A stretch of DNA of 56,208 nt from Halorubrum coriense DSM 10284 (GTDB lineage Archaea > Halobacteriota > Halobacteria > Halobacteriales > Haloferacaceae). Location of the stretch: the NCBI RefSeq assembly GCF_000337035.1, contig NZ_AOJL01000062.1, forward strand, positions 1-56,208, read 5' to 3'. Position numbers and translations under genes: made by a program. A model generated the notes under the pieces. That model did not search any database and was not told the DNA's origin. It was given only the letters and a program-made list of their open reading frames with translations. Of the stretch, positions 17,786 through 33,733 are shown one piece after another; the stretch's first letter is position 1; each line of letters begins with the position of its first letter.

Positions 17786-18483
17786 GGTAGTGTTCAGATA
17801 AGCTGATTCCATGCGAACGCGAACGATCTGAGCCACTTATCAGCAGTTTCTGCTTTGGCGTTGCTAAAACAGTTTGAGAAACTGGTAGTTCTGCGTTTTA
17901 CTTCACGAAATACACGTTCGATGCTGTTCCGATTTCCATGTCGTTCGTATCTAAAATCGAGGTCGTGTTTGTCACAGGCTCGGTGAAGTGGAACCGCGCC
18001 ATCAACGAGAAAGATTGCGTCATCCACGTCGTGTTTTTCGCGGAGTTCCGCGAAAAACTGATCTGCGATCACGTTTGTTCTTGTTGGCTCAAGCTTTGTA
18101 TGTAGCAGATCGTTCGAGTCGGGATCGACAGCGGCGTACAGCCAATATTGTTCATCGTCAAGTTGAATCACTGTTTCATCGACCGCAACGTGATTCGGGC
18201 ACCGGCCAGATTCCGGCTGTAAGTCGGCCTTGTGTACCCAGTTATGAACGGTGGATCGAGCCCGATCAACACCGAATACCTCAAGAAATGAAACAGTATT
18301 CGAAAGCGACAATCCTGCGAGATGAAGCTGAATACTGAGCTTCATCAACAGTTTCGGTGTTGCTTCTCGCTCCACAAACCCTAAGTTTATTTCGTCTAAA
18401 CAGCCGCTGAGGCGGTCGTTTTCGGGCACAGATCACTTTGAAAACGCACCGCCTCACCTTTCAATCCTTATCTGAACACCGCC
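17786..18483 (-). mobile_element. IS6-family element, copy 1
   Basis: A 698-bp element. Its ends are GGTAGTGTTCAGATAAG at 17786 and, inverted at 18483, GGCGGTGTTCAGATAAG. It is flanked by perfect 8-bp direct repeats GTTTCTGG at 17778-17785 and 18484-18491, the size expected for IS6. It encodes one transposase. Copy 2 at 22474-23171 has the same length and is inverted relative to it. Confidence 0.93.
17794..18429 (-). CDS. IS6-family transposase
   Basis: This 211-residue DDE transposase has an N-terminal helical DNA-binding region, then the core: VAVDETVIQLD (first Asp), DAIFLVDGAVPL (second Asp) and RNSIERVFREVKRRT (Glu). The DDE spacing and short length fit the haloarchaeal IS6/ISH-type group. 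It nearly fills the IS, reading toward the 17786 end. It is about 95% identical by eye to the copy at 22528-23163. Differences such as SIER/NVER and SGCL/SVCL show slight divergence. Confidence 0.95.
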   Translation of the reverse strand: MPENDRLSGCLDEINLGFVEREATPKLLMKLSIQLHLAGLSLSNTVSFLEVFGVDRARSTVHNWVHKADLQPESGRCPNHVAVDETVIQLDDEQYWLYAAVDPDSNDLLHTKLEPTRTNVIADQFFAELREKHDVDDAIFLVDGAVPLHRACDKHDLDFRYERHGNRNSIERVFREVKRRTTSFSNCFSNAKAETADKWLRSFAFAWNQLI

Positions 18484-19605: not shown

Positions 19606-19890
19606 TTAGGACTTGACAGCGACGCAGTCGTGCTCCGCAAGCAGTTCCCGACCACGCTGGGTCAGCAGATAGCTCATTGGATTCCCGTCGGTATCCATTC
19701 CACAGGCATCGGACATCGGACAGCCGCTACAGGCCGCCGATTCACAGTCGATCGCGCGGAGGTACCCCTCACGGACCATCGAGTCAAGCATTCCACGGAT
19801 GGCATCTTCCCGCGTGTCCAACTGGGTGGCGATCGTCGAGACGGGTACGTTTCGTGCGACCATCGCGAGGACACAACGGTAGGTACTCAC
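19606..19890 (-). CDS. feoC: FeoC-like winged-helix Cys protein
   Basis: A 94-residue protein with a winged helix in residues 1-45 (VPVSTIATQLDTREDAIRGM), then Cys49, Cys54, Cys57 and Cys63 in the pattern Cys-x4-Cys-x2-Cys-x5-Cys, and a second short helical part. This matches the FeoC/[Fe-S]-dependent transcriptional repressor family, whose Cys cluster binds Fe-S and which modulates FeoB stability or expression. It is the last gene of the feo operon. Its ATG overlaps the stop of the membrane-protein gene (ATGA). Confidence 0.75.
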   Translation of the reverse strand: MSTYRCVLAMVARNVPVSTIATQLDTREDAIRGMLDSMVREGYLRAIDCESAACSGCPMSDACGMDTDGNPMSYLLTQRGRELLAEHDCVAVKS

Positions 19891-20345
19891 GACGCAACCA
19901 CCTCACGAAGTCGGTCGATGACAGCGATTCCGTCAACGTGACGGATAGCGGGGAGCGTGAGCAGAACGGCGATGAGTGCTGGCGCGTACGGTGGCGCTAA
20001 TGCGCCGAAAATTGCCCCTGGTGGAGCAATCCACGTCTCAGCGCCGCCCGGGATCGCTTCCAGTACCGCAGTGAAAAGCTGAGTGCCGGCCGTGATCCAG
20101 AGCATACCACTGGCGAGAACAACGATCGCCCGCTCGCGTATACTGGGGACGTCGGCGAGGACAGCATGGGTGTACAGTCCGCCGGCGGTGGCGAGGATGA
20201 TGCCACGCCAGAGGACGTAGGTGCCACCGATCGAGACTGGTCCGACTGCCCGACTGACGCCAAGGATCCCGACGGCGAGTTCGATTCCGCCAACGACGAG
20301 CAGGCTGGCTCCGAAAAACGCCCAGTAGAGACGCGTAATCCGCAT
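19887..20345 (-). CDS. Four-helix membrane protein in feo operon
   Basis: A 152-residue protein with hydrophobic helices near residues 7-28, 38-60, 73-95 and 110-130, and a short polar C-terminus. I do not recognise a named family. It sits directly after the FeoB permease (its ATG follows the permease stop) and overlaps the FeoC-like gene by four bases, so it is translated as part of the iron-uptake operon. It might be an accessory subunit of the split FeoB channel, but that is inference from position. Confidence 0.7.
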   Translation of the reverse strand: MRITRLYWAFFGASLLVVGGIELAVGILGVSRAVGPVSIGGTYVLWRGIILATAGGLYTHAVLADVPSIRERAIVVLASGMLWITAGTQLFTAVLEAIPGGAETWIAPPGAIFGALAPPYAPALIAVLLTLPAIRHVDGIAVIDRLREVVAS

Positions 20346-21581
20346 TTATGCCACCCCCATAACGATCCCAAGTAGATGGAACAGTCCGCCCCAGATGAAC
20401 AGCGCTGCGATCAGCGTGGCGAGACTTCCGAGGAGGACGCGCGTGAGTCCGCCGCTGTTGCGGCCCTCCTTGATCAGCATAACGAAAGTGGCTACACAGG
20501 GAAAGTAGAGACTGATCATGATTACAGACATTACTGTCTCGTAGGGGGTGAGTGCGATGGCGCTCAGCTGGGCGACGGCGAGGTCCTTCCGCATGAAGCC
20601 GGCGACAAGGGCGGGAACCGTGTCTGCCGGTACGCCGAGCCAGCCGGTTAGCACAGGCTGGACTGCCATCCCAATTACACTCATGAGGTCAGTCACATAG
20701 AGTACGTTCATCACTCCGACGCCCACGAGGACGAACGGCAAACCAGTCGTGAGAAAGCCGCGGGTGCGCATCGCGAGTTTCTGGCCGAGTGGTCGCGGCC
20801 GCGGCCAGCGAAGCGGTGGGATGTCGACAATGAACTCCGGTATCGAGCCACTGACAACCCGGTTGAGGACGGCACCGAACACAAAGAAGCCAGCAATCAG
20901 ATACAGGAGGATGAATCCCGTATACTGGGGGATCAACGAGAGCATCACCCCCAACTGGGCGCCACAGGGAATAAACACCGACAGCAAGGTCATCATTATA
21001 AACCGCTGTTTTTCCCCCTCTAGTGACCGGGTCGCCTCGACGCCCGGCACGTTACATCCAAAGGAGAGAACCATCGGCACGACCGCGAAGCCGTGTAGGC
21101 CGATCCGGTGGAAGAACGTATCGAGCAACACGGCCAGCCGTGGGATATACCCTGAATCCTCAAGGACGGATAGGATAAAATATAACGCAAGCAGCGCCGG
21201 AACAACAACGCCCACGGCGATGAAGAGACCACTCGTGAGCATCCCGAACGCCTCGAAGCTATTGGTTGCCGCCGGGTCACCGACTAAGACGAAGTACACC
21301 CAAGTGCCCTCAAGCGGGAACGTTTCCTGAAGCCAGGGTAGCCAGTACCGATCGAACAGGGGCACGAAGTACCCATCGGTGAAGAAGCCGGCGACGGCGC
21401 CGAAGAAGCCCCACATCCCGTAGAGCACGGCGATTGCGAAGGGAAAGCCGGTCCACGGTGAGACCATTAACTGACCGATTTCGTCGGCGACCGAGGCCTC
21501 AGCGGTTTCGTACTCAACGGTCTGATCTGCGATTTCGTCAACGAGATTCCACCGCGCCGCAGGATCAAGCTGTGAGTCCAT
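20346..21581 (-). CDS. feoB: FeoB permease domain (split FeoB)
   Basis: This 411-residue protein covers only the membrane part of FeoB. Family motifs are GCNVPGVEATR (the first gate motif, with its conserved Cys) and the later PCGAQLGVMLSL (second Cys region), plus SGYIPRLAVLLD and the C-terminal FMRKDLAVAQL. The G domain is encoded separately by the preceding gene. I chose ATG 21581 because it lies one base after the GTPase stop. An upstream ATG at 21641 would overlap the GTPase gene. The product moves ferrous iron across the cytoplasmic membrane. The full-length single-chain FeoB is about 600-800 residues, so this is a clean domain split. Confidence 0.9.
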   Translation of the reverse strand: MDSQLDPAARWNLVDEIADQTVEYETAEASVADEIGQLMVSPWTGFPFAIAVLYGMWGFFGAVAGFFTDGYFVPLFDRYWLPWLQETFPLEGTWVYFVLVGDPAATNSFEAFGMLTSGLFIAVGVVVPALLALYFILSVLEDSGYIPRLAVLLDTFFHRIGLHGFAVVPMVLSFGCNVPGVEATRSLEGEKQRFIMMTLLSVFIPCGAQLGVMLSLIPQYTGFILLYLIAGFFVFGAVLNRVVSGSIPEFIVDIPPLRWPRPRPLGQKLAMRTRGFLTTGLPFVLVGVGVMNVLYVTDLMSVIGMAVQPVLTGWLGVPADTVPALVAGFMRKDLAVAQLSAIALTPYETVMSVIMISLYFPCVATFVMLIKEGRNSGGLTRVLLGSLATLIAALFIWGGLFHLLGIVMGVA

Positions 21582-21582
21582 A

Positions 21583-22122
21583 TCAGGAGCCGTTTCGAAT
21601 GCGTGTCTGTACCTGTTCAATTGACGGGGCGTGCGCCTCATCTATCCGACGCTGGAGGGTTTTAATTCCCCGTCCCTCCGTAGCAACGGCCGGAACAACC
21701 GGTACGCCAAGCAACCATTCAAGCCGATCGACATCGATGTCGATCCCCTTGCGACGGGCCTGATCCCACATATTGAGCGCCACGAGGAGTTCGTGTCCGC
21801 GTTCGATTAGCTCGAGCATGAGGTTGAGCCCCCGCTCAAAGCGTGTGGCATCAATCACGCCGACAACGAGCACATCGGCAGCGTCTTCGAGGAGTTCGAC
21901 CGTTACCTCTTCTGCGCGGTCTCGCGGATCAAGCGAGAAGGTGCCTGGCGTGTCGATAATGGGAACCGTATCACCGTCGATGACGAGGTCACCTTCGGCG
22001 TAGTCGACGGTTGTCCCGGAATAGTTCGACTCGGTCGCACTCGCGCCGGCGAGCCGGTTGAACAGCACGCTTTTGCCGACGTTTGGATGTCCGACGAGGA
22101 GTATCTGCGAGGGATCGGACAT
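21583..22122 (-). CDS. feoB: FeoB GTPase domain (split FeoB)
   Basis: A 179-residue stand-alone G domain. G1 is GHPNVGKS at residues 11-18, G2 the Thr in YSGTTVD, G3 DTPG, G4 NMWD (the NMxD form usual in FeoB) and G5 in PAVATEGRG. A guanine-dissociation-inhibitor-like helical tail is short or missing. The start is ATG 22122, overlapping the feoA stop by one base (TGATG). A GTG one codon earlier is possible. It gates iron import with the permease encoded next. Confidence 0.92.
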   Translation of the reverse strand: MSDPSQILLVGHPNVGKSVLFNRLAGASATESNYSGTTVDYAEGDLVIDGDTVPIIDTPGTFSLDPRDRAEEVTVELLEDAADVLVVGVIDATRFERGLNLMLELIERGHELLVALNMWDQARRKGIDIDVDRLEWLLGVPVVPAVATEGRGIKTLQRRIDEAHAPSIEQVQTRIRNGS

Positions 22123-22418
22123 CACTCAACCGAGAGTTCGATCCCTTGAGCGCACTGTCGACTGATCGACGTCACCGACTGATCAACCGCAACAACCAGT
22201 GGACCATGGAACGGGTGTTTGGACCGCACCTCAAGCTCGCGTCCGGGTCGGATGCCCATCGCGAGGGCGCGATCAGATACGTCTTCGTCGACCCGCTCAA
22301 TCGTTCCGGTCTGCCCGCTTTCGAGGGCCGCCACGTGGGTGCTACCGACGGACGACCCGTTATTCGTCTGTTCAGGTATGACCGAGGCGATGCGTCCAGA
22401 GAGCATTATTGTACTCAC
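22122..22418 (-). CDS. feoA: FeoA-like SH3 protein
   Basis: A 98-residue protein with an SH3-like core: SGQTGTIERV, ALAMGIRPGRELEVR, PLVVAVDQSVTSISRQCAQGI. This is the FeoA order of strands. FeoA is a small cytoplasmic partner of FeoB. The first codon is GTG 22418, and ATG 22406 (MLSGRIASV) is an alternative. It leads a five-gene minus-strand operon feoA-feoB(G)-feoB(permease)-membrane protein-feoC. A metal-repressor-like palindrome lies 17 bases upstream. Confidence 0.85.
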   Translation of the reverse strand: MSTIMLSGRIASVIPEQTNNGSSVGSTHVAALESGQTGTIERVDEDVSDRALAMGIRPGRELEVRSKHPFHGPLVVAVDQSVTSISRQCAQGIELSVE

Positions 22419-22434: not shown

Positions 22435-22454
22435 TTTTTTGGCCCGCCTAAAAA
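22435..22454. promoter_or_regulatory. Palindromic operator upstream of feoA
   Basis: Arms TTTTTTGGC (22435-22443) and GCCTAAAAA (22446-22454) are separated by CC. Eight of nine positions pair. AGTA and TACT extend the symmetry outward. The form resembles TTAGGC-type sites bound by haloarchaeal DtxR/SirR/Idr iron repressors, and the site overlaps the expected feoA promoter. IS6 copy 2 begins only 20 bases further upstream. Confidence 0.6.
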
Positions 22455-22473
22455 GTACTGCGGTCGTGACGCC

Positions 22474-23171
22474 GGCGGTGTTCAGATAAGAATTGAAAGG
22501 TGAGGCGGTGCGTTTTCAAAGTGATCTATGCCCGAAAACGACCGCCTCAGCGTCTGTTTAGATGAGATCAACTTAGAGTTTGTGGAGCGAGAAGCAACAC
22601 CGAAACTGTTGATGAAGCTCAGTATTCAGCTCCAGCTCGCTGGCTTATCGCTTTCGAATACTGTTTCGTTTCTTGAGGTATTCGGTATTGATCGGGTTCG
22701 GTCTACCGTTCATAACTGGGTTCACAAGGCCGATTTACAGCCGGAATCTGGTCGGTGCCCGAATCACATTGCGGTCGATGAAACAGTGATTCAACTTGAC
22801 GGTGAACAATATTGGCTGTACGCCGCTGTCGATCCCAATTCAAACGATCTGCTACATACAACGCTTGAGACAACAAGAACGAACGTGATCGCAGATCAGT
22901 TTTTCGCGGAACTCCGCGAAAAACACGACGTAGATGACGCGATCGTTCTCGTTGATGGCGCGGTTCCACTTCACCGAGCCTGTGAAAAACATGGCCTCGA
23001 TTTCAGATACGAACGACATGGAAATCGGAACAACGTCGAACGTGTTTTCCGTGAGGTAAAACGTAGAACTACCTGTTTCTCAAACTGTTTCAGCAACGCC
23101 GAAGCAGAAACTGCTGACGAGTGGTTGAGGTCGTTCGCTTTCGCATGGAATCAGCTTATCTGAACACTACC
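22474..23171 (+). mobile_element. IS6-family element, copy 2
   Basis: A 698-bp element starting GGCGGTGTTCAG and ending CTGAACACTACC, with perfect 8-bp target duplications GTGACGCC at 22466-22473 and 23172-23179. It lies inverted relative to copy 1, and the two bracket 3,990 bases holding the feo operon. Because each copy has its own target duplication, each inserted independently rather than as two halves of one composite transposon. Confidence 0.94.
22528..23163 (+). CDS. IS6-family transposase
   Basis: This 211-residue transposase is near-identical to that at 17794-18429, with DDE residues in VAVDETVIQLD, DAIVLVDGAVPL and NNVERVFREVK. The reading frame is intact and likely active. It starts at ATG 22528, 54 bases inside the element. 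Confidence 0.95.
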   Translation: MPENDRLSVCLDEINLEFVEREATPKLLMKLSIQLQLAGLSLSNTVSFLEVFGIDRVRSTVHNWVHKADLQPESGRCPNHIAVDETVIQLDGEQYWLYAAVDPNSNDLLHTTLETTRTNVIADQFFAELREKHDVDDAIVLVDGAVPLHRACEKHGLDFRYERHGNRNNVERVFREVKRRTTCFSNCFSNAEAETADEWLRSFAFAWNQLI

Positions 23172-23282
23172 GTGACGCCACCACTGCGACGAACCCAACC
23201 GCGGGTACCATTACGGCACTAGCAAAAGGGCTTTTTTCCAGCGATCGAACGGACGCGTGTTCCGAAGAGAAAGCGCAGACGG

Positions 23283-23570
23283 ATGTGTGCGGGTGGCCAG
23301 CACCGCCGTCAGGGACGCTCGCGCGATACCGATGGACGGTTCACCGAGACCGTTGTACTCGAGGAGGTTCAAGACGTCTTCACGGCGATTGCGGGGCCGG
23401 TTGTCACCACCACGGATGTGGCCGACGTGCTCGGTATTTTGACCGAAGCTGCCCGTCTGGAACTCAACGATCTCGTCGCGAGGGGGTCCTCCAGCGGCGA
23501 ATGGCCGGACGGACGGTCATTTACCCTAACTGCCGCGTTGCTACGGTGGTTGTACAATACCGCGATACCG
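23283..23570 (+). pseudogene. Broken copy of winged-helix gene
   Basis: The frame reads DGRFTETVVLEEVQDVFTAI and GPVVTTTDVADVLG, nearly matching DNGRFAETVPPEAVQDVFSA and the same following motif in the intact gene at 24700-25011. After LNDLVARG the match continues in another frame (RRMAGRTVIYPN against RRRETGRTVVYW), so a frameshift near 23490 disables it. A CACTAGCAAAA motif about 60 bases upstream resembles half of the intact gene's palindrome. It faces the intact copy, with the rhodopsin operon between. Confidence 0.8.
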
Positions 23571-23603: not shown

Positions 23604-24257
23604 TCAGTCACCCCAGACGGGGACAATAATGTCGACGGGCCGGGCCCGGCAGAGGAAGATCAAGAACCCGCCTTTCACCACTGCGTCGAGTAACAGGAAC
23701 CCGAGGTTCGTTACGCCGAACCCAAACAAGCCAAGCCCCTCGCTGCCGAGCAGCCACACAACTGGATAGCCCGGGCCGACAGCTAGAAACAACCGCCGTA
23801 GGTCTGCGTACAGCGCCGAGCGCAAGCTGCCGGCGCCCTGGCGATCGATGAGCAGGGCAAACAGTCCGACCAACGACAGCGTCGCGAGCGCGAACAGTGC
23901 GTAGCGCGCCGGCTCCGATGTCAGCGCGGCGCCGATGCCGGCGCCGACCATCAGCAGATCCAGGCCGACTGCGAGACGGACCGTGTTGGGCTCCTCGGTA
24001 AGCAAGAACAACCCGGCGACGTACGCCGGCGTCCCGACGAGCCACTCCGCGTAGTGGAGCCATGCGACCGAGCCTGTGGCGAGGTCAACCCGTCCGTAGC
24101 CGAGGCCAATACCGGCGTAGCTGACCGCCGACGCCCCGAAGATGACGGCGACGATCCGCCGGTAGCGCCGGGTCTCGTCGCTAGTGGGCCGTACGGCCAC
24201 GGCGCCAGCGGTAACAAGCGCGAACCCAGCGGCCGCGAAGAGACTGACGGACCGCAC
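23604..24257 (-). CDS. Divergent type-1 (microbial) rhodopsin
   Basis: A 217-residue seven-helix protein that aligns end to end with bacteriorhodopsin. Conserved features are Tyr69-Ala-Glu71-Trp in helix C, Asp100 (BR Asp115), YPVVWLLGSEG at 164-174 in helix F, Asp191 (BR Asp212) and Lys195 (BR Lys216, the retinal Schiff-base lysine). Altered positions are BR Arg82 to His68, Asp85 to Glu71, Asp96 to Gly82, Trp138 to Phe122, Trp182 to Gly161 and Glu204 to Thr. Loss of the Asp96 donor and Glu204 release group argues against an efficient proton pump. The open pocket at Gly161 suggests a shifted chromophore or another ligand. GTG 24257 starts 6 bases after the DtxR-like stop. No Htr transducer or brp gene is adjacent. 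Confidence 0.85.
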   Translation of the reverse strand: MRSVSLFAAAGFALVTAGAVAVRPTSDETRRYRRIVAVIFGASAVSYAGIGLGYGRVDLATGSVAWLHYAEWLVGTPAYVAGLFLLTEEPNTVRLAVGLDLLMVGAGIGAALTSEPARYALFALATLSLVGLFALLIDRQGAGSLRSALYADLRRLFLAVGPGYPVVWLLGSEGLGLFGFGVTNLGFLLLDAVVKGGFLIFLCRARPVDIIVPVWGD

Positions 24258-24263
24258 CGTCGG

Positions 24264-24707
24264 TCACCGGCTGACCAGCCGCTCGCAGTCGAGCGCGTTG
24301 GTCGCCTCACAGGGGCGGTCACAGGGCCGGGAGAGCTGGTCGTCTAGACGGGAGAGCCCTCCGGAGGGAACTATCCGGCCGATCCGGTAGGCCTGTTCGG
24401 TGTCCAAGGAGATATCCACCGTCTCGAAAAACTGCTGGACGAGACACCGCCGCCACAACAGGTCCCGTGCGATGCGCTCGCCGCGGGGGGCCAACTCTAC
24501 CCCGACGTAGGGCTCGTAGGTCACCAGCCCCGCCTCGTCGAGTGTTTTAATCGTCTCGGTGACCGTCGGCCCGCTCACGCCGAGGGAGCCGGCCAAAACA
24601 CCGGTGCCGACCGGGGAGTCGTCGGCGAGCGTCAATACCAGCAGCGCGCAGAGATGACGCCCCTCCGCCGGGCTCACGGGAAGGCTTGCGGGAGGCGCGT
24701 CACTCAT
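24264..24707 (-). CDS. DtxR-like regulator lacking usual metal ligands
   Basis: A 147-residue protein with the DtxR plan: winged helix (VLAGSLGVSGPTVTETIKTL, then DEAGLVTYEPYVGVELAPRG) and a dimerisation region from residue 80. The usual ligand His79 of DtxR is Cys88 here (WRRC). The Cys-x2-Glu-His motif is replaced by AYRIGR (106-111). A C-terminal group Cys129, Cys133, Cys141 replaces the usual PxxCPHGxxIP turn. It may sense redox state, a thiophilic metal or an Fe-S cluster rather than Fe/Mn. ATG 24707 overlaps the preceding gene by 8 bases, and the rhodopsin gene follows, so it probably regulates this operon or itself. Confidence 0.75.
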   Translation of the reverse strand: MSDAPPASLPVSPAEGRHLCALLVLTLADDSPVGTGVLAGSLGVSGPTVTETIKTLDEAGLVTYEPYVGVELAPRGERIARDLLWRRCLVQQFFETVDISLDTEQAYRIGRIVPSGGLSRLDDQLSRPCDRPCEATNALDCERLVSR

Positions 24708-25011
24708 CGTGTCCACCCCCGTGCCGCTCCCTCGTCGGTCGGCCACCGGTGTCGCCGGCCACCCAGTACACGACCGTCCGGCCGGTCTCACGCCGGCGGA
24801 GTTCCCCCCGCTCGACCAGCCCGTTGAGCTTCGTCCGCGCTGCTTCCGTCGATACCCCGAGTACGTCTGCGACGTCTGTGGTCGTCACGACCGGGCCGTC
24901 AACGGCGCTAAACACGTCTTGGACCGCCTCGGGCGGGACTGTCTCCGCGAACCGGCCGTTGTCGCGACGACGCCGGCGCCGCTGGCGGCGGTGTGGCGTC
25001 TTGTCGCTCAT
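24700..25011 (-). CDS. Small winged-helix DNA-binding protein
   Basis: A 103-residue protein with a very basic head (RRQRRRRRRDNGRF, residues 7-20), then a winged helix: PPEAVQDVFSA, VVTTTDVADVLGVSTEAARTKL as the helix-turn-helix, GELRRRETGRTVVYW as the wing. The fold resembles small haloarchaeal HTH proteins of the MarR/ArsR type. I cannot name a family. It leads the operon with the DtxR-like and rhodopsin genes. The gene is leaderless, with a TATA box at 25036-25043 and a 19-base palindrome just upstream of it. A broken paralogue lies at 23283. Confidence 0.75.
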   Translation of the reverse strand: MSDKTPHRRQRRRRRRDNGRFAETVPPEAVQDVFSAVDGPVVTTTDVADVLGVSTEAARTKLNGLVERGELRRRETGRTVVYWVAGDTGGRPTRERHGGGHDE

Positions 25012-25035
25012 CTCGTTAATACTACCCGCTCGTGT

Positions 25036-25063
25036 GATATAAACGGTTTGCTAGTAGCAAACC
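25036..25063 (-). promoter_or_regulatory. Promoter and operator of rhodopsin operon
   Basis: On the minus strand, a TATA-like TTTATATC (25036-25043) lies about 27 bases before ATG 25011. Directly upstream is a perfect palindrome with arms GGTTTGCTA and TAGCAAACC around one base (25045-25063). The palindrome covers the BRE position, so a bound protein would control transcription factor B access. Autoregulation by the winged-helix or DtxR-like protein is the simplest idea. Confidence 0.65.
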
Positions 25064-25186: not shown

Positions 25187-25220
25187 TTCCCACTATTGGG
25201 AATACGGCTCAACATATATT
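25187..25220 (+). promoter_or_regulatory. Operator and promoter of CoA-disulfide reductase gene
   Basis: A perfect palindrome TTCCCA-CTAT-TGGGAA at 25187-25202 precedes a TATA-like CATATATT at 25213-25220, which is about 27 bases before GTG 25244. The gene therefore looks leaderless and controlled by an upstream-bound regulator. Confidence 0.55.
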
Positions 25221-25243: not shown

Positions 25244-26923
25244 GTGTCACAGCAGTACGTCATTATCGGTGGAAACGCTGCCGGGATGAGCACCGCGACG
25301 CGACTCCGACGACTCGACGAGACCGCCGAGATCGTCGTCCTCGAGCGGGGAGAGAACATCTCGTACGCGAGTTGCGGACTGCCGTATCACCTCAGCGGCA
25401 CTGTCTCTGAAGACGATCTCACGGTGATGGGGAGCGAGCAGCTCGCGGCCGCCTTCGATCTCGATATCCGAACGGGCGTCGCTGCGACGAATGTCGATCC
25501 GGATACGCAGACGGTCTCGGTCACTGCGGCCGACGGGGAACCAGCGGCGATCGCCTACGACGACCTCGTTATCGCCACGGGAGCGAAGCCGCTCGTCCCG
25601 CCCATGTTCGACCTGTCCGAACTGGAACACTGTCACACGCTCCGAACCGTTTCGGACGCGACGACTATTCGCGAGAGGATGACCGGTGACGAGCGAGCGC
25701 TCGTTATCGGCGGCGGCTACATCGGCCTCGAAGTCGCCGAAAACCTCTCTGAAGCCGGGAACGACGTCGTCGTCGCCGAGTTGCTCGAACAGGTAATGCC
25801 GAACACACTCGGTCCGGAAATGGCGGCGAGAGTCGAGTCACGGCTCCGCGACCGGGGCGTCGATCTCCGGCTGGGAACCGGCGTCGACTCGCTGACGGAA
25901 CCCGGTGACGGGACGGTTGTCGCCACGACGGACGACTCGCGAGAGACGTTCGATCTCGTCGTCGTCGCAACCGGCGTCACGCCGCGAACAGAGCTGGCGG
26001 AGTCGGCAAGCGTAGAGCTACACGACAGTGGTGCGGTCGCGGTCGATGATAGAATGCGAACGTCGACGCCGTCGATCCACGCCGTCGGCGACGTCGCCGC
26101 TCCGCCGGCCGCTCGGACCGGCGGGAACGCGTGGGTACCGCTTGGTGGGCCGGCCAATCGGATGGGCCGGGTCGCCGCGAACGACATCGCCGGCCTTGAT
26201 GACCGCCTCGATCCAGTTTTGGACACCTCGATCGCGAAGGTGTTCGATCTCGATGTCGGCACCGTCGGTGACACGGTAGCGGCGCTCGACGAGGAGGGAC
26301 AGGCGTACGAAGCGGTCTACACGAGTCAGCCGGACCACGCGGAGTACTACCCCGGGGCGTCGGAGATCGACTTCAAACTCCTGTTCGATCCCGATGACGG
26401 AACGATCCTCGGTGCACAAGCCATTGGCGAGAGCGGCGTCGATAAGCGAATCGACGTCCTCGCGACGGCCATCGCACACCGGGACACCGTGTTCGATATC
26501 CGCGATTACGATCTCGCGTACGCGCCGCCATACTCGGCCGCAAAAGACCCGGTTAACGTGTTAGGAATGATTGGTGCGAACGTCGTCGAAGATATCGCCA
26601 ACGTCGTCCATCTCGACGAGTTTCTCGAACGGAAAGACGAGGCAACGGTCATCGACACCCGCCCTCCGGAGATGCGGGAGGCCCAAGGACGGATCGACGG
26701 CGACGAGAACGTCCCGCTCGGCGAGATCCGAGAGTGGGCCGCTGACGTCAACCCGGACGGAGAGGTGTTTACGTACTGTAAGATCGGGAAGAGCTCCTAC
26801 ATGGCAACGCGGGTACTGGCAGAGTACGGGATAACCGCTCGCAGCCTGACCGGCGGCTACTATCGCTACGAGTACGCGTCGACGGACGACGACAAACGAG
26901 TCGAATCCGTGCCAGCAGAGTGA
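25244..26923 (+). CDS. CoA-disulfide reductase-like flavoprotein with rhodanese domain
   Basis: A 559-residue fusion. Residues 1-440 are an FAD/NAD(P)H disulfide oxidoreductase. YVIIGGNAAGMSTATR binds FAD, SYASCGLPYH contains the single redox Cys44 typical of CoA-disulfide reductase/NADH oxidase enzymes, ALVIGGGYIGLEVAENL binds NAD(P)H, and HAVGDVA is the second FAD motif. Residues about 460-550 form a rhodanese domain with the active-site loop TYCKIGKSS, Cys about 512. Such fusions reduce CoA disulfides, persulfides or polysulfide. GTG 25244 is chosen because it starts MSQQYVIIGG and has a TATA box at the right distance. It is transcribed alone, divergent from the rhodopsin operon. Confidence 0.9.
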   Translation: MSQQYVIIGGNAAGMSTATRLRRLDETAEIVVLERGENISYASCGLPYHLSGTVSEDDLTVMGSEQLAAAFDLDIRTGVAATNVDPDTQTVSVTAADGEPAAIAYDDLVIATGAKPLVPPMFDLSELEHCHTLRTVSDATTIRERMTGDERALVIGGGYIGLEVAENLSEAGNDVVVAELLEQVMPNTLGPEMAARVESRLRDRGVDLRLGTGVDSLTEPGDGTVVATTDDSRETFDLVVVATGVTPRTELAESASVELHDSGAVAVDDRMRTSTPSIHAVGDVAAPPAARTGGNAWVPLGGPANRMGRVAANDIAGLDDRLDPVLDTSIAKVFDLDVGTVGDTVAALDEEGQAYEAVYTSQPDHAEYYPGASEIDFKLLFDPDDGTILGAQAIGESGVDKRIDVLATAIAHRDTVFDIRDYDLAYAPPYSAAKDPVNVLGMIGANVVEDIANVVHLDEFLERKDEATVIDTRPPEMREAQGRIDGDENVPLGEIREWAADVNPDGEVFTYCKIGKSSYMATRVLAEYGITARSLTGGYYRYEYASTDDDKRVESVPAE

Positions 26924-31834: not shown

Positions 31835-33733
31835 ATGGAATTTGGAAATACAGAATCGTCAGTTAAAAAGTACATAGAGAACACGCCAAATGGAAAAGAG
31901 ATTCCTGATGATACGTTCAGGCGGAGACACATCGGTGTGTTGGCGTTCACGCTCTCTTTGCTTCCGTTTGTCTTCGGAGTTAGTCGGATGGTGGGAGCGG
32001 AGTCGGTCACTGGTGCGGAATTGCCGGTTATCCCGATGCTACACTCCGTTGTTGGCACTGGTATCGTGTTGGGATTGGTGGTGATAGCTGCGATTCCAGC
32101 ACTTCCGCGTCGAATTCGAGCGGCTACAGGCGCAATCGCGTTTATGGCACAGGGGTCAGTGTTAGCTTACTTTACTGGGGGATTCATCGAGGCACATTTT
32201 CTTTATTTTGTGGGAGTCGGGGTTGTCGCACTGTATGAAGATTGGGTACCGTTCGCGATCACGATTGGCTATGTTGCCCTCCAACACAGTGTCTTCGGGC
32301 TCATAGAGTGGTTCACAGTGTATAATCATCAGGCGGCGATGGCGAACCCAGTCGTCTGGGGTGGGATACACGCTGTTGGAGTGCTAATGCTTGCGGGGAC
32401 AATCACGTTTCTTTGGCAGTCGCTCGCGATTCAGCGACAACAAGCTCGTGAGAAGGTCCAAGAGAAACTCGAAGAAGCAGAGGATGCGAGAGATCGTGCC
32501 AAAGAAAAGGAAATAGAGGCAGCCGAACAGCGTGAGGGAATGCAAGAACTCAACGCGGAACTTGAGCAGGCCGCTGCTGACTACCAGTCAGTCATGCTTG
32601 AGTGTGCCGCTGGTGATTTCACTCGCCGACTTGATACCCACGTAAACAACGAGGCGATGGCTGAAATAGCCACCACGTTCAACGATATGGTGGAGGATCT
32701 TGAGCTGACATTCGCGCAGATTCAAGCTTTCGCTGATGAGGTCGCTTCCGCAAGTGAAGATGTGAGTACATCGACGGCAGAGACGCAGCGTGCGAGCGAG
32801 CAAGTCGCGGACTCCATCCAAGCGATTGCAGCAGACGCGGATACACAGCACGGGCAGAGCCGAGAGGCATCGAACGAGATGCAGAATCTCTCTGGGACAG
32901 TCGAAGAAGTTGCGTCCTCAGCAGACGAAGTTGCCACAGCCTCTCAGAGTGGGGTTGAACTCAGTAATGACGGCCAAGAAGCCGCGTCAGAGGCAATTGA
33001 TGAGATGGGAGAGATTGAGTCTCAGTCTGAGCAGACAGTCGACCAAGTCAACACGCTCGTGAGTGAGCTTGATGAAATCGGACAGGTTGTGGAGTTGATC
33101 GATGATATTGCTGATCAGACGAATTTGCTTGCGCTGAATGCCTCGATAGAAGCGGCTCGCGCCGGTGAGGCCGGGTCCGGGTTCGCGGTGGTAGCGGACG
33201 AAGTGAAGGGGCTTGCAGAGGAGACTGCAGAGGCTGCTGATGATGTTACCAAGCGGATTGAGCGCGTTCAGTCCAACTCCGATGAGACCGTTGAAGATAT
33301 TGAGTCTATGCAGGACCGGGTTCGTTCGGGCGCTGACACGGTTGAGTCGGCCCTCGCTGCTCTCGATAAGATCACGACCACCGTCGAAGGGGTGAATGAT
33401 GGTATCCAAGAGATCAGCGACGCAACAGACAGTCAAGCTGCCTCTACAGAGGAAGTCGTAAGCATCGTCGAGGAGGTCGCAAATGCGGCCAATGAAGTGG
33501 ACAGTGAGTCCGATAACGTCTCAGCAGCAGCCGAAGAACAAACCTCATCGCTTGTGGAGGTCTCTCAGAACGCAGACAATCTCAAAGAGCGGGCAGGGAA
33601 GCTACAAGACCGCCTCAGCAGGTTCATCATTAATATCGAGCCTGATCGGCTTGGAGATGTAAGGGGTGACAATGCCGGCCCTCAAGCTAGTAGCTCGGTC
33701 AGGGCAGTGGGTGACGGCGGCAATACAGAGTGA
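31835..33733 (+). CDS. Methyl-accepting chemotaxis transducer, HtrVIII-like
   Basis: A 632-residue receptor. Residues about 30-205 hold six helices with the motif [21 protein letters not shown] and [11 protein letters not shown]. This is an N-terminal membrane module also seen before kinases and cyclases and in the haloarchaeal oxygen transducer HtrVIII. A coiled coil (residues 205-255) and HAMP-like region ([22 protein letters not shown]) follow, then the MCP signalling domain with the hairpin tip [21 protein letters not shown] and Glu/Gln-rich methylation helices. It signals to CheA/CheW encoded elsewhere. Conserved His residues in the membrane module could bind heme. Aerotaxis is a guess based on HtrVIII. 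Confidence 0.87.

Follow-up and report, generated by a model that had tools for sequence, protein, structure and literature searches.

Rhodopsins in which the arginine at position 82 of bacteriorhodopsin is replaced have been named Alt-rhodopsins, with histidine as one of the replacing types (Bulzu et al. 2022, PMC9601134). The accessible part of that paper places the cluster of H-type Alt-rhodopsins, with His at R82 and DxxxK in TM7, in giant viruses and mentions neither a change at W182 nor iron genes; it counts four newly described archaeal Alt-rhodopsins, three of them from Halobacteriota. In bacteriorhodopsin, L93 and W182 both adjoin the C20 methyl group of retinal (PMC8709120). A second group of related systems comprises ferrous-iron (Feo) loci with a DtxR-type regulator, in which a DtxR relative lies beside feoB. 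Here we describe a locus of Halorubrum coriense DSM 10284 in which a divergent rhodopsin is found in such a setting. The stretch of DNA analysed, which we call the window, is 56,208 nucleotides long (NZ_AOJL01000062.1).

The rhodopsin gene (23604–24257, minus strand) begins with a GTG codon and encodes a protein of 217 residues, which matches the Pfam family Bac_rhodopsin (PF01036) with 92.1 bits against a cut-off of 24.6. Solved archaerhodopsins are among its sequence matches. A structure model, suggested as a check in the original prediction, was calculated with AlphaFold2 using the window protein and 51 rhodopsins from the locus search; a widened scan of genome contigs gave 80 rhodopsins of other kinds, which served as a comparison set and for the AlphaFold2 alignment. 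The model has seven helices and a mean pLDDT of 85, and helix F is broken in it at Gly161-Pro162. It matches solved structures with Z scores of 27–28 over about 210 residues, with the sensory rhodopsin NpSRII, bacteriorhodopsin and xenorhodopsin tied within 1 Z; a viral structure library gave no significant match. The seven modelled helices, together with Lys195 of helix G aligned to K216, identify the protein as a type-1 rhodopsin. A bacteriorhodopsin-like protein of 217 residues had been predicted, and the Pfam score and structure matches agree. Only one orthologue was found; it lies on megaplasmid NZ_CP034941.1 of Halorubrum ezzemoulense Fb21, is annotated as bacteriorhodopsin and is about 93.5% identical.

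Several positions that are invariant or nearly so in other rhodopsins are changed in the window protein. We surveyed 171 other collected rhodopsins comprising proton pumps, halorhodopsins and sensory types. All 171 have Arg at the R82 position and Trp at the W182 position, which are His68 and Gly161 in the window rhodopsin. At the D85 position only D or T is found among the others, and at T89 only T or S; the window protein has Glu71 and Gly75. The L93 position, otherwise L, I, M or H, is occupied by Tyr79, and the D96 position by Gly82. Because L93 and W182 adjoin the same methyl group in bacteriorhodopsin, the Leu-to-Tyr and Trp-to-Gly changes may be an exchange of bulk, with Tyr79 filling the space of the missing Trp182. 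The original prediction assigned its residues correctly and missed Gly75, Tyr79, Pro162 and Val194 (A215). Two of the replacements it listed are not unusual: Phe, as in Phe122 at the W138 position, occurs in 34 of the 171 rhodopsins, and Thr, as in Thr183 at the E204 position, in 15, mostly halorhodopsins. The protein keeps the Schiff-base lysine, acids of the counterion type and most residues of the pocket (Lys195, Asp191, Trp72, Thr76, Asp100, Met103, Tyr164, Pro165, Trp168 and Glu173). Since residues identical in all other collected rhodopsins have changed, the window rhodopsin probably does not work as an ordinary pump driven by light.

With the bacteriorhodopsin and archaerhodopsin pumps, the window rhodopsin shares the fold, the lysine, D212, Y185, P186, W86, W189, D115 and E194; it differs from them by H for R82, E for D85, G for T89, Y for L93, G for D96, G for W182 and T for E204. 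It does not fit an outward proton pump of the bacteriorhodopsin type: D85-T89-D96 and Arg82 are absent, with E-G-G and His instead, and of the release pair E194/E204 the first is kept as E173 and the second replaced by T183. Thr at E204 is shared with halorhodopsin, from which the protein differs by Glu rather than Thr at 85 and by E-G-G in place of the T-S-A motif. NpSRII, the top structural match within the tie, shares Phe at W138, a short BC loop and the lack of Asp at 96; unlike NpSRII, the window rhodopsin has lost R82 and W182 and has no adjacent transducer gene. As regards sensory rhodopsins I and II in general, neither the operon nor the annotated genes up to 15 kb from the Fb21 copy include a cognate transducer. 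A gene for a methyl-accepting-type transducer, with a membrane part of several helices, lies 7.6 kb from the rhodopsin at 31835–33733, and none is annotated near the Fb21 copy. The SxxxK motif expected in TM7 of heliorhodopsins is DxxxK here (D191 to K195), and the Trp or Phe expected at R82 of xenorhodopsins, as defined in PMC9601134, is His68; these residues exclude both classes.

The same paper defines H-type Alt-rhodopsins by His at the R82 position, and His68 places the window rhodopsin with them. By this definition replacement of R82 is known and the window rhodopsin is a variant of the H type, with which it shares the TM7 DxxxK motif; its E-G-G motif in TM3 is unlike the H-type proteins described there. 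It may itself be one of the three Halobacteriota Alt-rhodopsins counted in that paper, to which WP_094521193 may likewise belong. No description of the W182 change or of the iron-gene setting was found in the open-access literature searched. A tree was built from 55 sequences, in which the window rhodopsin forms a separate branch with about three changes per column; placements with bacteriorhodopsins (p 0.58), halorhodopsins (0.55) or sensory rhodopsins (0.44) are not rejected by the AU test. The bacteriorhodopsin and NpSRII sequences in the trees served solely as labels, and no sequence of the set was identified with certainty as HwMR, the middle rhodopsin of Haloquadratum. The protein is a long branch of its own that cannot be placed with any class. 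Together with the residue counts, the tree upholds the view that it is unlike the pump, halide and sensory types. Three ordinary rhodopsins are also encoded in the genome, of the bacteriorhodopsin (L001), halorhodopsin (L002) and sensory (L003) types as assigned by their TM3 motifs.

The rhodopsin is the third gene of an operon on the minus strand. The first encodes a winged-helix (wHTH) DNA-binding protein of 103 residues (24700–25011), which weakly matches several winged-helix families, and the second a DtxR-like regulator of 147 residues (24264–24707; Fe_dep_repress, PF01325, 40 bits, cut-off 26). The first two genes overlap by 8 bp and only 6 bp separate the second from the rhodopsin, which confirms the predicted operon with two DNA-binding proteins. 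The match of the DtxR-like protein to the metal-binding and dimerisation domain PF02742 is weak (17.5 bits, cut-off 27). In an alignment, a C-terminal C-x3-C-x7-C motif (window 24264–24330) is common to most of its close relatives (L056–L122) and is possibly a metal or Fe-S site. Elsewhere in the order, the wHTH-DtxR pair occurs in 14 loci, and tblastn found no rhodopsin in any of them. DtxR relatives adjoin feoB in L056, L057, L058 and L060, and genes for heavy-metal exporters (ArsP_2) in L059, L109 and L110; among Feo loci with such regulators, a rhodopsin is present only in the two from Halorubrum. A gene that by eye resembles the metallo-beta-lactamase fold often precedes the pair (L103–L105, L107, L108, L112).

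Upstream of the wHTH gene lies a perfect dyad, TTTGCTA-C-TAGCAAA (25047–25061, minus strand), the probable operator of the operon. With up to two mismatches allowed, 0.01 matches to the full dyad are expected by chance, and a related element is present in 10 other loci. Read from the sequence, a TATA-like box, TTTATA (25038–25043, minus strand), abuts the dyad about 27–30 bp before the wHTH start. In both Halorubrum copies and 10 further loci, the element TG(C/G)TACTNGCAA stands ahead of the wHTH gene and points the same way; the scanned loci hold just one more site, 2.8 kb away on the opposite strand in L058. The conserved element TTGGTACTAGCAA, often inside the dyad TACCAnnTTGGTA, lies just before the wHTH gene in the window (25038–25061), L061, L103, L105–L111 and L113, and spans several families of the order. 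The candidate target sequence of the wHTH and DtxR-like proteins is TTTGCTACTAGCAAA. Because the pair is found throughout the order in loci that lack a rhodopsin, and often behind the same operator, the rhodopsin looks like a later addition to an older regulatory unit of metal type and is probably under its control. From their family and neighbors, we infer that the pair senses iron. The original prediction considered a light- or retinoid-linked connection to gene control through the DNA-binding partners possible; as the pair occurs without rhodopsin and, in several loci, near metal-related genes, the regulators more probably set the level of the rhodopsin than take up a signal from it, and nothing observed points to a direct step from light to transcription.

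Downstream of the operon is a ferrous-iron gene set that had earlier gone unnoticed. The Fb21 locus runs from wHTH through DtxR-like to rhodopsin and continues, after about 170 bp, with feoA, the GTPase half of feoB, its membrane half, a small membrane protein and feoC. The window carries the same Feo set, 94–98% identical to Fb21 and separated from the rhodopsin by an insertion sequence. On the minus strand these are feoA (22122–22406, 98% to the annotated Fb21 FeoA), the GTPase half of feoB (21583–22122, 95%), the membrane half (20346–21581, 98%), the small membrane protein, which has no Pfam match (19887–20345, 95%), and a feoC-like regulator (19606–19890; Pfam FeoC 28.8 bits, cut-off 21). 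FeoB is thus encoded by two genes, one for the GTPase part and one for the membrane part (20346–22122). The insertion sequence, of about 0.7 kb (22474–23170, plus strand; transposase ORF 22528–23163), is flanked by CGTGACGCC at 22465–22473 and 23171–23179, and the joined flanks correspond to the uninterrupted Fb21 site. Its transposase gene and a very similar one at 17794–18429 bracket the Feo genes. Alignment breakpoints delimit a further segment absent in Fb21 (23222–23540, plus strand), which contains a decayed wHTH copy (match at 23301–23489, 69%) preceded by the operator-like start ACTAGCAAAAGG. A dyad read from the sequence before feoA, TTTTTTGGC-CC-GCCTAAAAA (22435–22454), has a near-identical counterpart before feoA in Fb21 and is a possible separate DtxR-type operator. 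As the Feo genes have this dyad of their own, they may be a separate transcription unit, which weakens the idea of a single transcript with the rhodopsin. On the other side, a gene for an FAD-dependent oxidoreductase with a rhodanese-like end (25244–26923, plus strand, 95% to Fb21) diverges from the operon; a relative also adjoins the wHTH-DtxR pair in L061. A dyad before it, TTCCCACTATTGGGAA (25187–25202), is possibly another operator.

Comparing the two Halorubrum copies shows where the rhodopsin is constrained. The reading frame is open in both strains, and all 16 amino-acid differences lie outside residues 35–136 and 152–195. Within this 146-residue core, whose borders were set after seeing the changes, there are 8 synonymous and no nonsynonymous differences, compared with 2 and 16 outside (Fisher p 2.9e-5). 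The absence of amino-acid changes beside 8 silent ones points to selection on the core, a pattern hard to explain otherwise. The whole-gene dN/dS of 0.68, against 0.09–0.34 for the two regulators, FeoA and FeoB, would by itself suggest decay, and the split between regions argues against it. No further members of this rhodopsin branch were found in the other sampled genomes of the family (170) and the order (392), nor in viral contigs, phages, genome contigs searched with the close pair or a genome sample of the phylum; these searches gave only other rhodopsins, at 39% identity or less. The linkage of the three genes, which the original prediction proposed to check, is thus not unique to one replicon, as it recurs in Fb21, and was not found in the other genomes sampled from the family and order.

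Based on these observations, we tentatively suggest, as the most likely role, a slow light sensor or modulator that pumps weakly or not at all and is tied to ferrous-iron supply. A type-1 rhodopsin gene would have been recruited into an existing metal-type locus of operator, wHTH, DtxR-like regulator and Feo on a Halorubrum megaplasmid, and would there have evolved into a separate lineage. The wHTH/DtxR pair would adjust production of the protein to the metal state, and the protein would bind retinal; two Brp/Blh-type genes for retinal formation are present in the genome, so the chromophore should be available. Missing the proton donor (Gly82), Arg82 and Glu204, it would have a slow cycle with little or no pumping, and its light-driven state may act on the uptake of ferrous iron, possibly by way of FeoB. 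Light yields Fe2+ by photoreduction, so such a coupling could be useful. Against this role, a protein without Trp182 may be unable to bind retinal in the normal way. The tails of the protein are short and no signalling partner is encoded adjacent to it, the insertion sequence parts Feo from the rhodopsin in the window, and dN/dS is looser than in the regulators and FeoB. A bolder reading makes it a photoreceptor whose retinal pocket was rebuilt without Trp182 and Arg82 and which couples light to Feo-type uptake of ferrous iron; it would then be the first rhodopsin with metal homeostasis as its dedicated task. We consider this improbable. In the open-access text searched, no paper on haloarchaea was found that connects a rhodopsin with FeoB, or an opsin with iron and DtxR.

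The Gly at W182, the broken helix F of the model (161–162), the further changes at R82, T89 and L93 and the position in a Feo locus would also suit an opsin that binds retinal weakly or not at all and acts as a membrane helper, for example by assisting FeoB or the small membrane protein or by carrying retinal, so that light would be irrelevant. Retention of Lys195, Asp191, Trp72, Thr76, Met103, Tyr164, Pro165 and Trp168, and a lysine-bearing core without amino-acid changes between strains, make this somewhat unlikely. We consider unlikely a light-driven proton transporter, weakly outward or inward, made at iron shortage to replace the energy of iron-rich respiration. The type-1 fold, a Glu71 able to accept a proton and the metal-type regulators would agree with it, and PMC10627834 offers a precedent in a diatom xanthorhodopsin reported to be important in iron-limited oceans. 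However, the protein lacks the D96 donor, Arg82 and Glu204, which outward pumps of the group nearly all have and whose loss argues against an efficient pump, and the genome already encodes a normal bacteriorhodopsin-type pump. A decaying or accidental passenger gene without present function, to which the restriction to two strains, the whole-gene dN/dS and the adjoining insertion sequence and gene relic would point, is very unlikely given the frame open in both strains and the 146 core residues unchanged beside 8 silent changes.

The wHTH-DtxR-operator module is a regulatory finding separate from the rhodopsin. All 171 comparison rhodopsins have Trp182 and Arg82, so a natural rhodopsin that lacks both and is under selection would test the true needs of the retinal pocket and the proton path. 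Should the window rhodopsin bind retinal, its color or its preferred isomer may be unusual. An action on Feo would link light and iron supply in these Halorubrum strains by a route absent from the literature searched.
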